Assembly (NCBI GenBank): GCA_036280995.1
Contig: DASUPQ010000282.1
Span: 1-36,985 of the forward strand
Reading direction: 5' to 3'
DNA: 36,985 bases
Source of the DNA: Actinomycetota bacterium
GTDB taxonomy: Bacteria; Actinomycetota; CALGFH01
The translations under genes were made by a program, and so were the position numbers. The notes beneath the pieces were generated by a model. It searched no databases. It saw only the letters and a list, made by a program, of their open reading frames with translations, and was not told where the DNA came from. Positions 26,225 through 32,713 of this stretch are shown one piece after another. Position 1 is the first letter of the stretch; every line of letters starts with the position of its first letter.

Positions 26225-29200
26225 CTACCCGGAAGGGGTGCTCGTGGGGCGCCGGGCGGCCACCACGCCGGCCGCGGCGGCCAGGGCCAGGAGCACCAGC
26301 CCGGCGCCGGTGAAACGCAGCAGCGGGCCGGTGTCCAGCCGCCGCTCGGAGGGCGGCACGGGCAGGCCGGGCACCGGCTCCGGCCGCATGGCCTGCCTAG
26401 GGACAAGGCCGAGGCGGACGGCCAGGCGGCCGAGGGCCGCCGGCCGGGCCGGGCCGCCGTCGGCGGGCAGCTCCAGCACGGCCCGCTCGAACAGCTGGCG
26501 CACGGCCCCGTCCGGCATCGTCTGCGGGGTGCCGAGCGGCCGGCCGAACCGGTCCCGGGCCCGCCGGAAGTCGCTGGCCGTGGCCGCCGCCGGGTCGGTG
26601 CCCAGGTAGACGCGGGCGATCTCCTCGTCGCTGAGCAGGGCCCTGGTCTGCCGGTTGTTCACCGGCGCCCGGGCCGATGGCAGCGGGATGTCGGCCTCGG
26701 CCACCGCCTCGACGTCCAGCTTGGCCAGCTGCGGCGGCAGCTCAATGGGCCGCACGGCCGGCGGGCCGCTGGCGGTCGGGACCGCTCCAAGCACCATGGT
26801 GTCGAACGCCTGCAGGGCCGGGCCGTCGCTGGTCCAGACCGACCCGAGCGGCCGGCCGAGGACCGCCTTGCCGCCGGCGGCCTGGTAGCCGGTGTAGAAG
26901 GCGCCGACCTGGCTGTCCACGACCCGGTAGCCGCCGCAGGCCGAGCCCGTGACGTTGGAGAACAGCCCGCCGGGCACGGGGATGCTGTCGGCCACCGGGT
27001 CGAGCGGGGCGGTGTCGACCCGCCACAGCTCGATACCCGACAGGCTCCGCGACGGGTGGGCGGCCAGCCGCCTGCCGTGCTGGCGGACCCAGGCGGCCAG
27101 CGACGGGGTCATGGGCCCGCCCTGGGCGGTCGCGCCGGTCAGCACGAAGAAGCGCACCCCGGCGGCGTGGGCGGCCGGGCCGCTCGAGAACTCGGTCACG
27201 GTGGCGCCGGTGGCCAGCAGCCGGGCCCGGTCGGCGGGCCCGCTGGCGTTGACCGCCGAGCAGCCCGGCACCTGCTCGCCGACCGTCGCCACCAGCCGGG
27301 CCAGGCCGTCGTCGGCCGGGCGGCCGTAGCTGGCCCCCCAGGCCAGGCCCTGGACGACGAGCAGCCCGGCCAGGACGACCCCCGTCGCGGCTCCGACCAA
27401 CCGGGTCTCCGGGCGCCCGCCGGCGGCCGCCAGCACCGCCACGCCGGCCAGGGCCAGGGAGACGGCCGCGGCGGGGACGGCGAAGGGGAGGGCCTGGGAG
27501 GTCGGGTAGCCGAGCGCGACCGCCACCGCCGCCCCGGCGGCCGTGGTCGCGGTCCAGGCGAGCACCCGGGCCGGCCATTGCGCGGTGCCAGGCCTGGCGC
27601 CGGACCGGTGGCGCCAGGCCAGGATGGCGGCTGCCAGGCCGGTGGCGACCAGCAGCCAGCTGAGCGGGGCGGCGGCCAGCGACGCGCCGAGGGACCCTCG
27701 CCTGGGGGGGCGTCCGAGCAGCCATCCGGCCTGCCCGGCGGTCAGGTCCTGGCCGGCCACCCAGACGGGCAGGACCAGCCAGAGCCCGATCCCGAGCCCG
27801 AGGGCGGCCATGGCCCGCCAGGCCTCCCGGTGCCGCCCCTGGAGCAGCTCGGCCACCACCGGGACGGCCAGCACCCCCAGCGCGAGCGGGCTGACCAGCA
27901 GGGCGAGCCCGGCCCCGGCGGCGACCAGCGGCAGCCACCGCAGCGCCGGCCGCGCCGGCAGCTCCCAGGCCAGGAGCAGCGCACCCAGGGCGAGCCCGAC
28001 GGCCAGGACCGTCCCGGTCGCCGTCCGCCCGCTCCGGACCAGCACCGGGTCGAGGGCCACCAGCGCCCCCGCCAGCGCCGCTCCCCCCAGCCGCCACCCG
28101 TGCGGCGGGGCCGGACCCGGCCCGGCCGCCGCACCGGTACCGGGTCCGACCCGCATGAGAAGCAGGAAGAGCAGCACGGTCAGCCCAACCACACCCGCCA
28201 GCAGGAACCGGCTCGGCACCCTGGCCTCCCGGATCGCCCCCTCGAGCGAGGCCCCCGCTTCCGTCGCCCGCAACCACACCCCGACGCCCAGGGCGTGCAG
28301 CGGCTCGATCGGCCCCATCCTCGGGTCCTGGGCCACCAGGCCGCCCTCGCCCTCCCCGGCAGCCCGCACCACCGCCACCTCACCAGCCAGCGTGTCCGGC
28401 CCCCCACCCGCACGCCACCCCGCGGCGGCCACCCCCACCACCGCCAGCAGCAAGATCACCAGGGCGGGCCCGGCCACCCCGCCCACCCCAGCCCGAACCC
28501 CCGCCGCGCCCCCCTGCGCCACCCGCGCCCGCCGAGCCTCAGCCTGCGCAGCCCTCCGCGCCTCCAACCGCGCGATCCGCCGCTGCGCAGCCTCCTCCCG
28601 CCCCACCCGCCGAACCTCCGCCCGAGCCGCCCTGGCCAGCCGAGCCTCGTCCCGGGCGACCTTCCGCGCCTCCTCCTGAGCCGCCTTGGCCTGCCGGGAC
28701 TCCTCCCGGGCAATCTTCCGCTCCTCGGCCTGTGCCGCCCGCTGCTGCGCCGCCTCGGCCCGAGCCGCCTCCTGAGCTTCGGCCCGCGCCGCCTTGGCCT
28801 GCTGCGCCTCTGCCCGGCGGACCTCGGCGCTCGCCGCCCTGGCCTGCGCCGCTTCCTGGCGAGCCGACCGCCGCGTCTCCGCCTGGGCTGCCCGCGCCTG
28901 CCGCGCCTCATCCCGCCGGGCCGCCCTGGTCCGGCTCGCCTCCGCCCGCGCGGCCTTCCGGACCGCCGCCCGCTCCACACGCCGCTGCGCCGCCTCGGCG
29001 CGGGCGGCCTGCCGCGCCTCGGCCCGAACCGCCCGCCGCTCCGCGGTCTGCGCCGCCTTCGCCTGCCGGGCCTCGGCCCGAGCCGCACGATCCACCTTCG
29101 CCTGCGCCGCCTTGGCCTGACGCGCCTCCTCCCGCTCGGCGGCCCGAACCTCCGCCGCCGCGGCTCTGGCCTGGCGGGCTTCCTCCCGAGCGGCGGCTCG

Positions 29201-30373
29201 GGCCTCCGCCTGCGCCGCCTTCACCCGACGGGCCTCCTCCCGCTCAGCGGCCCGCGCCGCCTCGGCCTCCGCCTTCGCCTGGCGCGCGACCTCGCGCTCG
29301 GCCGCGCGGGCCTCCGCCTCAGCCGCCCTTGCCTGACGGGCCTCCGCACGCTCGGCCGCACGGGCCGCCTCGGCAGCAGCCTTCGCCTGGCGCGCCTCCT
29401 CCCGGGCCGCGGCGCGCGCCTCCGCCTCGACCGCCTTGGCCTGGCGGGCTTGCTCGCGGCGGGCCTCGGCGTCGGCGGCCTTGGCCCGAACCGCCTCGGC
29501 ACGTTCGGCGCGGCGCTGCTGCTCGGCCCTCTCGGCCCGCTCGGCCCGGGCGGCCTTGGCCGAAGGTGCCTCGTCACAACCCGTGGAGCGCTCCTCCGCG
29601 CCGGTGGGCGGCCGCCTCCCCCAGCGGCGCAGCTGCTCGAGGGTGCCCCGGTCCATTCCCGGGGCGACCTGGCCGGGCCCGATGACCGGCTCCAGCTCGC
29701 GTCCGCTCAACCCGATCAGCAGCCCCGACTCGGCGACCGGCAGTCCCCGGCCCGCGGGCGCCTCCGCCACCCGTCCCGGGGCGGCGGCCTCCGGATCCTC
29801 CCCGGGGTCCGGCTCGCCGGGCCCCACCGGCCCGGCCACCTCGGGCGCGATCCCCGTGATCGCCGCCCACAGCTCGGCGATCTGCAGCGGCCGGTAGAGG
29901 ATGGCGCGGGGCGGGCCCGGCGGGAGGGACTCGGGGTGCTCGCCCTCCTGGAGCAGGACCGCCGTGCGACCGAGGAAGCGGCCGTCGAGCACGGCGAAGG
30001 CACGGTCGTGGAGGCTGGGCGGCATGTCGACCACGACCACGTCGGCGTGCCGGATGGCGGCGTCGAGCTCCTCGTTGTACCAGTCCAGCACCTTGACCAC
30101 GCCGGGCTGCTCGATCAGGGAGCGGAGGGCGGCGGCGAGCATGATGTCGCGGGAGACCAGGACCACCCGGAGGGCCGACCCCTGGGGCTCGGGCACCGGC
30201 GGCCGCGGACGCGGGCCGGGCCGCGGGGTCCGCTCCGGCTCCTCGGAGCGGACCGGTCCGCCGGTCCCCGCTGTGGGGACGGTCTCCGGCTCGGGGGTGG
30301 TCGGGGACGGCTCGGTGGCCGGGTCGCCCGGGCCGCCGGGGAGGCGCTCGACGTCGCCGCGGCCGCCGCTCAC
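26225..30373 (-). CDS. giant receiver-like/long-helix/GT-C-like/LGFP-like surface protein
   Basis: I do not recognise this 1382-residue architecture as a described family. A Pro-rich start (1-66) leads to a receiver-like fold (67-175; RVVLVSRD, VVVVDMPPS, LYRPLQIAEL). It keeps an Asp at the acceptor strand but has Arg where Lys is expected. Residues 270-620 are an unbroken Ala/Arg/Glu/Gln helix with an 18-residue period. Membrane helices run from 637 to about 1010. The stretch ALDPVLVRSGRTATG and its surroundings resemble the membrane core of GT-C (PMT/ArnT-like) glycosyltransferases, but I cannot point to the catalytic acidic pair. Extracytoplasmic residues about 1020-1345 contain two LGFP-like modules (about 1156-1197 and 1267-1303), and a last helix ends the chain near 1374. 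The GTG start overlaps the sortase-relic stop in GTGA. Confidence 0.8.
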   Translation of the reverse strand: MSGGRGDVERLPGGPGDPATEPSPTTPEPETVPTAGTGGPVRSEEPERTPRPGPRPRPPVPEPQGSALRVVLVSRDIMLAAALRSLIEQPGVVKVLDWYNEELDAAIRHADVVVVDMPPSLHDRAFAVLDGRFLGRTAVLLQEGEHPESLPPGPPRAILYRPLQIAELWAAITGIAPEVAGPVGPGEPDPGEDPEAAAPGRVAEAPAGRGLPVAESGLLIGLSGRELEPVIGPGQVAPGMDRGTLEQLRRWGRRPPTGAEERSTGCDEAPSAKAARAERAERAEQQRRAERAEAVRAKAADAEARREQARQAKAVEAEARAAAREEARQAKAAAEAARAAERAEARQARAAEAEARAAEREVARQAKAEAEAARAAEREEARRVKAAQAEARAAAREEARQARAAAAEVRAAEREEARQAKAAQAKVDRAARAEARQAKAAQTAERRAVRAEARQAARAEAAQRRVERAAVRKAARAEASRTRAARRDEARQARAAQAETRRSARQEAAQARAASAEVRRAEAQQAKAARAEAQEAARAEAAQQRAAQAEERKIAREESRQAKAAQEEARKVARDEARLARAARAEVRRVGREEAAQRRIARLEARRAAQAEARRARVAQGGAAGVRAGVGGVAGPALVILLLAVVGVAAAGWRAGGGPDTLAGEVAVVRAAGEGEGGLVAQDPRMGPIEPLHALGVGVWLRATEAGASLEGAIREARVPSRFLLAGVVGLTVLLFLLLMRVGPGTGAAAGPGPAPPHGWRLGGAALAGALVALDPVLVRSGRTATGTVLAVGLALGALLLAWELPARPALRWLPLVAAGAGLALLVSPLALGVLAVPVVAELLQGRHREAWRAMAALGLGIGLWLVLPVWVAGQDLTAGQAGWLLGRPPRRGSLGASLAAAPLSWLLVATGLAAAILAWRHRSGARPGTAQWPARVLAWTATTAAGAAVAVALGYPTSQALPFAVPAAAVSLALAGVAVLAAAGGRPETRLVGAATGVVLAGLLVVQGLAWGASYGRPADDGLARLVATVGEQVPGCSAVNASGPADRARLLATGATVTEFSSGPAAHAAGVRFFVLTGATAQGGPMTPSLAAWVRQHGRRLAAHPSRSLSGIELWRVDTAPLDPVADSIPVPGGLFSNVTGSACGGYRVVDSQVGAFYTGYQAAGGKAVLGRPLGSVWTSDGPALQAFDTMVLGAVPTASGPPAVRPIELPPQLAKLDVEAVAEADIPLPSARAPVNNRQTRALLSDEEIARVYLGTDPAAATASDFRRARDRFGRPLGTPQTMPDGAVRQLFERAVLELPADGGPARPAALGRLAVRLGLVPRQAMRPEPVPGLPVPPSERRLDTGPLLRFTGAGLVLLALAAAAGVVAARRPTSTPSG
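28514..29566 (-). repeat. 54-base coding repeat specifying an 18-residue helical period
   Basis: Inside the giant gene, codons for residues 270-620 form a degenerate tandem repeat. From residue 324 about nine successive 18-residue units align without gaps, each beginning R-(E/A)-E-A-R-Q-A-(K/R)-A. Further units follow with one single-residue insertion and one shortened copy. Eighteen residues are exactly five turns of an alpha helix at 3.6 residues per turn, so the same face repeats. At 0.15 nm per residue, 350 residues would span about 52 nm. The copies differ at many codons, so the repeat is old and not an assembly collapse product. Confidence 0.8.
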
Positions 30374-31129: not shown

Positions 31130-32713
31130 ATGACCGAGGTTGCCCCGCCGGTCCGGCGCCGGCTGTCCGACGACGCGATCGAGCACCTGCACAGCCTGAT
31201 GGCGGGCTGGCAGCTGATCGCCGACCTCGCCTTCGCCGACCTGCTGCTGTTCCTGCCCGTCGACGGCAGCGAGAGCTTCCGTATCGTCGGCCAGCTCCGG
31301 CCCTACACCGCCCGCACCCTCTACCCGGTCGACCTCGTCGGCGAGGTGGTCGAGCCGACCTGGCACCCGTACGTCGAGCGGGCCTGGCGGGAGGGCCGGC
31401 GCCAGCGTTCCCTGGAGCCGATCCTGATCGACGCCGAGCCGGTGCGGGTCGAGACCGTGCCCGTCCGCCACCAGGGCGAGATCGTGGCCGTGCTCAGCGT
31501 CGAGTCGCCGGAGACCCCGGCCCGCCCCACCGGCCGGCTGGAGGCGTCCTACCTGGGCGCGGCCGAGGCGCTGCTGGAGATGGTGGCCGACGGGACCTTC
31601 CCATTCGTCGAGGTGACCGACCCGACCGCCTCGCCCCGCGTCGGCGACGGCCTGGTCGTGCTCGACGCCAGCGGCCGGGTCGAGTTCGCCAGCCCCAACG
31701 CGACCTCGGCCTTCCGGCGGATGGGCACCAACGCCCTGCCGCTCGGCCAGCCGCTCCCCCACCGGGCGGCCATCCTGGTCGCCGAGGCCATGGCCGGCGG
31801 CCGGCCGGTGGAGTCGGAGATCGAGGCCGCCGGGGCGGTCGCCGACATCCGGGTGGTCCCCCTGCTACGGGAGGCCGGCCGCCGCGGCGCGCTGGTGCTG
31901 GTCCGGGAGGCGACCGAGCTGCGCCGGCGCGACCGGGTCATCTCCCGGCGCGAGGCGACCATCCGCGAGGTCCACCACCGGGTCAAGAACAACCTCCAGA
32001 CGGTGGCCTCGCTGCTGCGGCTCCAGGCCCGCCGGCTCGGGGACCACCCGCAGGCGGTGGCCGCCCTGGAGGACTCGGTCCACAGGATCACCTCGATCGC
32101 GCTGGTCCACGAGACCCTGACCGAGGAGTTCGAGGGGGCGGTCGACATGGCCGACGTGGCCCGCCGGGTGGTCAGGATGCTGGAGGGGTCGCTCGGCCGC
32201 GAGGACGCCCACATCGAGCTGCACACGGAATCGGTACGGGTGGACGCGGCCGTGGCCACCCCGCTGGCCGTGGTCCTCAACGAGCTGATCCAGAACGCCG
32301 TCGAGCACGGCCTGGGTGACGGCCACGGGACCGTCACCGTCGAGCTCCGCGGCGGCGACGACCAGCCGGTGGTCCTGGAGGTCCACGACGACGGTCGCCG
32401 GCCCATTCCGGAGACCGGCCACCCGCCCATGCCGGAGACCGGTCACCGGCCCATGCCGGAACCCGACCCCGCGGCACCCGGGCCCCCGGATCGGGAGGGT
32501 AGCCGGGGGCAGGTGGTAGCTCAACCGGCTGTCCACGGCCCTCCTGGCGGCCCCGTCGGCGACCCCTCTGGCAGTCCCGCGGGCGGGCTCGGGCTGCGGC
32601 TGGTGCGGGCGCTGGTCGAGGAGGAGCTGCACGGCCAGTTCACCCTGACCCACCCCGCCGGGCGGGGCAGCATCGCGACCGCGACCATCCCGCCGGTCGA
32701 GCGGGAGGGGTGA
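31130..32713 (+). CDS. PdtaS-type sensor histidine kinase with ATP-lid insertion
   Basis: This 527-residue soluble kinase has an N-terminal GAF-like domain (about 10-155), a PAS-like domain (about 160-265), a HisKA_2 dimerisation helix with phospho-His282 or His283 (IREVHHRVKNNLQTVASLL), and an HATPase domain (N-box LNELIQNAVEHG 383-394, DDG 420-422, GLGL 487-490). This is the order of mycobacterial PdtaS, whose partner is an ANTAR regulator such as the one at 20881. Between the DDG and GLGL boxes there are about 64 residues where relatives have 15-20. The extra part is Pro/Gly-rich and starts with three copies of an 8-residue repeat. There is no membrane segment. Translation starts at an ATG without ribosome binding site. 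Confidence 0.9.
   Translation: MTEVAPPVRRRLSDDAIEHLHSLMAGWQLIADLAFADLLLFLPVDGSESFRIVGQLRPYTARTLYPVDLVGEVVEPTWHPYVERAWREGRRQRSLEPILIDAEPVRVETVPVRHQGEIVAVLSVESPETPARPTGRLEASYLGAAEALLEMVADGTFPFVEVTDPTASPRVGDGLVVLDASGRVEFASPNATSAFRRMGTNALPLGQPLPHRAAILVAEAMAGGRPVESEIEAAGAVADIRVVPLLREAGRRGALVLVREATELRRRDRVISRREATIREVHHRVKNNLQTVASLLRLQARRLGDHPQAVAALEDSVHRITSIALVHETLTEEFEGAVDMADVARRVVRMLEGSLGREDAHIELHTESVRVDAAVATPLAVVLNELIQNAVEHGLGDGHGTVTVELRGGDDQPVVLEVHDDGRRPIPETGHPPMPETGHRPMPEPDPAAPGPPDREGSRGQVVAQPAVHGPPGGPVGDPSGSPAGGLGLRLVRALVEEELHGQFTLTHPAGRGSIATATIPPVEREG
32399..32470 (+). repeat. three 24-base tandem repeats in the kinase ATP lid
   Basis: Units at 32399-32422, 32423-32446 and 32447-32470 encode RPIPETGH, PPMPETGH and RPMPEPDP. 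The first two differ at only a few bases; the third has drifted at its end. The unit length is a multiple of three, so copy-number change keeps the reading frame. Confidence 0.8.

Follow-up and report, generated by a model that had tools for sequence, protein, structure and literature searches.

An ATP-lid insert in an actinobacterial PdtaS-type histidine kinase is very probably a translated copy of a genus-specific dispersed element

The ATP lid of a PdtaS-type cytosolic histidine kinase from an uncultured actinobacterium (lineage CALGFH01, assembly GCA_036280995.1) looks like one that has been lengthened by selfish DNA. The kinase gene lies in a window of 36,985 nucleotides, the whole stretch of DNA that was analysed (contig DASUPQ010000282.1), and most of the insert in its lid is one copy of a dispersed DNA element that had gone unnoticed in the first-pass annotation. 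Very probably what is translated in the insert is a copy of a short, lineage-specific element that has spread genus-wide into intergenic DNA as well as open reading frames (ORFs), and the best reading of this element is as an intragenic repeat comparable to the Rickettsia palindromic elements (RPEs), tolerated by its host protein as a disordered loop. The comparisons that follow draw on the window's own genome (G000), on one other member of the genus, here called the sister species (G001), and on one other genus of the family (G002), all genomes being draft metagenome-type assemblies.

The gene occupies positions 31130-32713 of the forward strand, where it was recognised as an ORF with Pfam and PDB matches. 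Its product of 527 residues carries the domains GAF_PdtaS (E = 1.9e-36), PAS_4, HisKA_2 (1.4e-20) and HATPase_c (4.5e-11), in that order, and the scores for GAF_PdtaS (125.5 bits against a cut-off of 23.7) and HisKA_2 (73.6 bits against 22.3) place it among the PdtaS-type kinases. The nearest solved relative by sequence is the mycobacterial PdtaS (PDB 2ykf, 2e-44), and the order GAF_PdtaS, PAS, HisKA_2 and HATPase_c is common to the Mycobacterium protein and the window kinase. What sets the latter apart from PdtaS kinases is a lid of 67 residues rather than 15-17 and a G1 box that reads DDGRR; the combination typical of PdtaS-type kinases, an intact G1 DxGxG with a short lid, is absent. The region from the G1 box, where the second glycine has been lost, through the G2 box (GLGL) was delimited by homologue comparison at 32387-32596 (+), and the 67 residues run from the G1 aspartate D420 (codon 32387-32389) to L487 of the G2 LGL (codon 32588-32590). 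Twenty-seven homologues were drawn from other families of the phylum, and in all 26 that could be parsed the lid has 15-17 residues, so that the excess in the window kinase is about 50 residues; the first-pass annotation had rightly placed the insertion in the ATP lid and had estimated its size a little too low, at about 45 residues. The kinase from the other genus of the family (a single genome) has a lid of 73 residues with a G1 box of DDGSG, and DxGxG is found in 25 of the 26 parsed homologues. To judge from the sequence, loss of the second G1 glycine would be more likely to lower kinase activity than to raise it.

Immediately 5' of the element core lies a 24-bp tandem repeat at 32401-32460 (+; Tandem Repeats Finder, period 24, 2.5 copies, 91% match, score 99), which codes for RRPIPETG/HPPMPETG/HRPMPEPD. 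An array of three 24-base repeats had been said to open the insert; the array is indeed there, with 2.5 copies, the third unit being partial and diverged, and it preserves the frame as had been claimed, the period of 24 being read through in the kinase ORF. The same program found a degenerate second 24-bp repeat of 1.9 copies in the Pro/Gly-rich 3' part of the insert (32539-32585, +), and weak tandem repeats over much of the window. As a separate observation, a 1382-residue ORF at 26225-30373 (-), with no Pfam match at 1e-5, contains a long array of a 54-bp (18-residue) Ala/Arg/Glu-rich repeat around 28589-29449.

The core of the dispersed element was located at 32459-32542 (+) by model R1 (49.9 bits, E = 1.6e-12), a sequence-only model built from 51 copies of the two positive genomes, and nhmmer recovered the same core at 32460-32542 (3.1e-11). 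It is the sole copy in the window, lies in sense orientation and in frame, and encodes residues 444-471. Within it the conserved block A, CGGGAGGGTAGCC, at 32492-32504 (+) is an exact match, one with 25 exact copies in the window's own genome, and after a spacer of 24 nt follows block B at 32529-32537 (+), of the YTGTCCACA type and here CTGTCCACG, with one mismatch. A DNA search of the same genome with positions 32385-32600 returned 39 further places up to an E-value of 0.2, which mostly matched the middle of the insert. Across copies the element is a core of about 85 bp in which the conserved blocks (C)GGGAGGGTAGCC and YTGTCCACA flank a variable 24-nt spacer, the spacing being constant in 54 of the 56 copies first collected and in 111 of the 117 scorable copies of a larger set. 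Since the blocks served to find the copies, their conservation is in part a product of the search; among the 25 exact own-genome matches to block A, in the choice of which block B played no part, all but two carry block B with at most two mismatches and with a spacing that is equal or differs by one base. Two subfamilies of the element occur in the genus, with GGGAGGGTA in 67 of 141 copies from both genomes and GGGGGAGCGTA in 45 of them.

No conserved hairpin or palindrome was found in the element, the RNAalifold consensus containing five pairs without covariation, and within the spacer no covariation was seen beyond an alignment shift; strongly covarying pairs that appeared once resulted from a one-base shift between the subfamilies. 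The alignment (A1) held 51 of the 56 copies, leaving out two with a gap of 26, one with a poor block B (L021) and two cut by contig ends. A stem following the GTAG tag was likewise not supported, with 72.5% of cells pairing as against 71.3% in shuffles and no covariation signal, and inspection by eye for the marks of a MITE revealed neither inverted termini in the consensus nor a clear target-site duplication at two empty sites. Several other identities were considered and dropped: a riboswitch or other structured RNA, as none of eight loci attained the gathering score of any Rfam family and covariation was not found; a promoter (TANNNT on the reverse strand of block A), discarded on inspection because the 28 nt to block B do not fit sigma-70 spacing; and a G-quadruplex, the relaxed pattern of which occurs in 53 of 141 cores compared with 12% of shuffles and was treated as a by-product of the conserved GGGAGGG.

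In the manner of RPEs, dispersed copies are confined to one lineage among the genomes searched. With an E-value of up to 0.1, model R1 matched at least 101 places in the window's own genome and at least 113 in the sister species, these counts being lower bounds since scoring was limited to 144 candidates per genome. The other genus of the family yielded a single weak match, and each of 28 further genomes of the phylum at most one, likewise weak. The exact two-block pattern was found in 2 of 100 genomes, at 14 and 26 places, and its reversal nowhere. Among 84,980 species, in a collection that may exclude records of the window's own genome, only CALGFH01 records contained it, in 26 stretches of the uncultured actinobacterium isolate ERR671912_bin.21, which is the sister species. 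Searches for a mobilising partner were negative in that no Y1 transposase (PF01797) was detected in either draft genome of the genus, 5 of 14 control genomes giving a match, and no gene recurred beside the copies other than small kinase, response-regulator and similar families common to 2-3 of 70 sequences from the window's own genome. Among the papers listed by literature searches, none could be recognised by its title or the opening of its abstract as describing the element.

From 147 hits in the two genomes, 141 distinct copies were left once duplicates and hits above an E-value of 1e-5 had been taken out. With ORFs called by a codon-usage script written for this analysis, 43 of these lie in sense and 26 in antisense orientation inside ORFs, 67 are intergenic and 5 cross an ORF edge; intergenic copies are strongly over-represented, because they make up 67 of 141 although about 90% of the loci was called coding. 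The excess of sense over antisense copies is marginal (p 0.053) and not significant alone. As with RPEs, the copies are found in frame inside unrelated ORFs, 69 of the 141 being intragenic with translations free of stops. Eight of ten element-bearing proteins scanned against Pfam had domains (LigD, a GlnD-type protein, a cyanophycin-synthetase-like protein, a molybdopterin oxidoreductase, a helicase, a NIT/HATPase sensor, an M20 peptidase and UvrD), and the element lay outside the matched domains in all eight. The kinase copy is atypical, for its residues 444-471 fall within a domain (HATPase_c, 376-522).

The tandem repeat of the kinase insert appears to belong to a wider pattern. Just upstream of the core, a tandem repeat was found at 54 of 134 copies (40%), whereas control windows drawn from these loci had one in 18 of 2000 cases (0.9%), by a criterion of a period of 15-45 and a score above the strongest shuffled one, and with equally strong repeats so rare in the controls the kinase repeat is beyond chance. 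Arrays also occur downstream, less often (25 of 131 copies, against 52 of 131 upstream), the denominators of 131 and 134 being the copies with enough flank. Their length varies: at one in-frame copy with orthologues in the two species, L129 has a single 24-bp unit and L067 has three, which bears out, at a gene other than the kinase, the earlier expectation that repeat number would differ between relatives, and at L023/L176 an 18-bp array differs in length. Since arrays are common beside copies and vary in length, the 24-bp repeat of the kinase is part of a general feature of the element. Array periods are multiples of three in 32 of 32 cases inside ORFs and in 11 of 22 elsewhere. In any gene, frame-preserving arrays are the ones that selection would spare. 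Given that the element also sits in numerous unrelated genes and between genes, a regulatory device specific to the lid accounts for this pattern less well than repeat growth beside the element followed by selection against frameshifts.

Comparison with the sister species provides an indication of movement. Among the sister-species loci compared, 28 of 75 own-genome hits had an aligned partner region, and many of these partners also carry the element. Clean empty sites in the sister species were seen at L143 versus L063, inside a predicted helicase gene, and at L158:763-820 versus L057, inside an M20 peptidase gene; this count leaves out the second copy in L058 versus L113 and the copy at L158:3467, for which the alignments were not clean. 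At L014:2012-2097 versus L208 there is also an 85-bp own-genome insertion with a cleanly empty sister site, the inserted sequence being unlike the element core. When 14 shared orthologous pairs were aligned, the blocks were mostly kept and the remainder was often more divergent than the flanks. Different subfamilies can occupy orthologous element sites, as they do in the two species at L014/L208 and L022/L191. Such divergence at shared sites may come from replacement, from conversion or from selection for the site, and orthologous sites that retain the element despite divergence could reflect selection for function rather than selfish spread. The kinase gene itself is split in the sister species, where a contig ends just before the position of the insert and the gene resumes on another contig just after it. 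By a count made by hand, a contig end is no more than 120 bp away from at least 10 of the 80 matches listed for the sister species (2.1 expected), so that breakage of the assembly at the element is a plausible reason for the split; in the window's own genome the figure is at least 4 of 70 matches against 2.7 expected, not a clear excess.

In the other genus of the family, the long kinase lid contains five 24-bp units of a sequence different from the window element. This unit, near GGCCTCGCGCGCCTCAGGCGA, is itself dispersed and tandem (L004:1612-1836 on the reverse strand, and L241-L259). A pattern taken from that genome, with two mismatches allowed, has 64 matches there; neither genome of the window's genus gave any, nor did the reversed pattern. 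Because the second unit is both dispersed and unrelated to the first, the same lid has been filled by a different dispersed repeat in each of the two genera.

These observations have to be set against other explanations of the insert. It could be argued that the lid is no more than a low-complexity loop, encoded by GC-rich DNA and tolerant of change, and that its match to dispersed repeats is compositional, given a GC-rich, Pro/Gly-rich insert and the weak tandem repeats seen over much of the window; this is hardly conceivable, as it is already refuted by the genome-specific copy numbers and is contradicted by the E-value of the window copy in a whole-genome search (1.6e-12), by the zero counts of the reversed-pattern controls, by the single weak match or none in each other genome of the phylum or family, and by the rarity of such strong tandem arrays in control windows. 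A second proposal, that the insertion is a regulatory feature of the lid, a long lid tuning ATP turnover and tandem copy number adjusting output between strains, would account for the finding that the two genera of the family have their lid insertions at the same place and a 24-bp tandem repeat in each, and the copy number of a 24-bp unit does vary at another gene. We regard it as very unlikely, however, for the inserted DNA is that of an element that recurs in numerous unrelated genes and between genes, the dispersed repeat in the second genus is another one, and the G1 box of the window kinase has lost a glycine.

Somewhat unlikely, yet a more serious contender, is the view that the element is a functional protein-binding site maintained at many places, for instance one with a DnaA-box-like 9-mer, and that intragenic copies are by-products. 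Such a site would explain why both blocks are conserved at a fixed spacing of 24 nt around a variable spacer, why orthologous sites keep both blocks as the remainder diverges, and why intergenic copies are over-represented; block B would be a putative DnaA box by the actinobacterial consensus, and both genomes have 9-mers with a TCCACA core, among them TTCTCCACA and ATGTCCACA, a short way upstream of dnaA. The exact 9-mer TTGTCCACA was absent from 7 kb around dnaA in either genome, with two one-mismatch 9-mers upstream of the gene. Against a binding site speak the confinement of the copies to one genus among those searched, the presence of half of them inside ORFs and on both strands, the existence of empty sites, and the fact that block conservation is partly built in by searching through the blocks. 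The stretches upstream of dnaA (L211:2280-2390 and L212:2420-2530), which contain TTCTCCACA, ATGTCCACA and other TCCACA-core 9-mers, are of some interest in themselves as a possible origin region.

Under the preferred reading, that of a dispersed intragenic repeat, copies of the element would move or be copied by some machinery acting in trans, tandem arrays would grow and shrink beside the core, and selection would remove frameshifting arrays from genes. In the kinase, the ATP lid would as a result contain a long Pro/Gly-rich loop, disordered and tolerated by the fold. A single-sequence AlphaFold2 model of the catalytic half (mean pLDDT 62.5) has a kinase fold in which the lid is without secondary structure and mostly below a pLDDT of 50, and Foldseek placed HisKA_2-type kinases such as 4r39 first, with TM-scores by query length of 0.45-0.49 for the first three. 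The model suggests that the lid insert is a disordered, tolerated loop, and its effect on ATP handling is probably none or mildly negative.

Among known systems, the closest parallel is with the RPEs, elements of about 150 bp of which nearly half were described as residing inside ORFs as translational fusions (PMC10969869). The likeness consists in a short, lineage-specific element with a large share of copies in ORFs, where they add a peptide in frame, and in the lack of a known dedicated transposase; the window element differs from RPEs in having no conserved palindrome or hairpin, two blocks at fixed spacing, adjacent tandem arrays, an uncultured GC-rich actinobacterial host and more than 100 copies per genome. 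The GTAG and CGTC families of REP sequences are also short dispersed repeats, some of them with intragenic copies, and the report on them argues that insertions in linkers or loops are possibly neutral (PMC3733652). With the GTAG REPs, which are mobilised by RAYT/Y1, the window element shares a GTAG tetranucleotide in its conserved block; it is longer, has no stem supported by covariation, and no Y1 transposase was found in either draft genome, and on the last two grounds an assignment to REP/RAYT was rejected. One may also entertain the unlikely idea of a new class of intragenic element, a non-palindromic two-block site of fixed geometry that provokes tandem amplification on its 5' side and thereby creates and keeps resizing disordered in-frame linkers in many proteins genus-wide, the kinase lid included, with the sister genus doing likewise by means of an unrelated 24-bp repeat. 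Possible readers of such a two-block site are DnaA or other proteins that bind the chromosome.

Rickettsia provides the best-known cases of selfish repeats carried in frame by proteins, and an uncultured actinobacterial lineage with more than 100 copies, half of them in ORFs, would give the phenomenon a broader reach. With arrays that are tied to the element and filtered for frame only in genes, the origin of new protein linkers becomes testable. That the same lid was filled by different repeats in two genera would mark it as a tolerant landing place and may offer a natural experiment on the lid length of histidine kinases.
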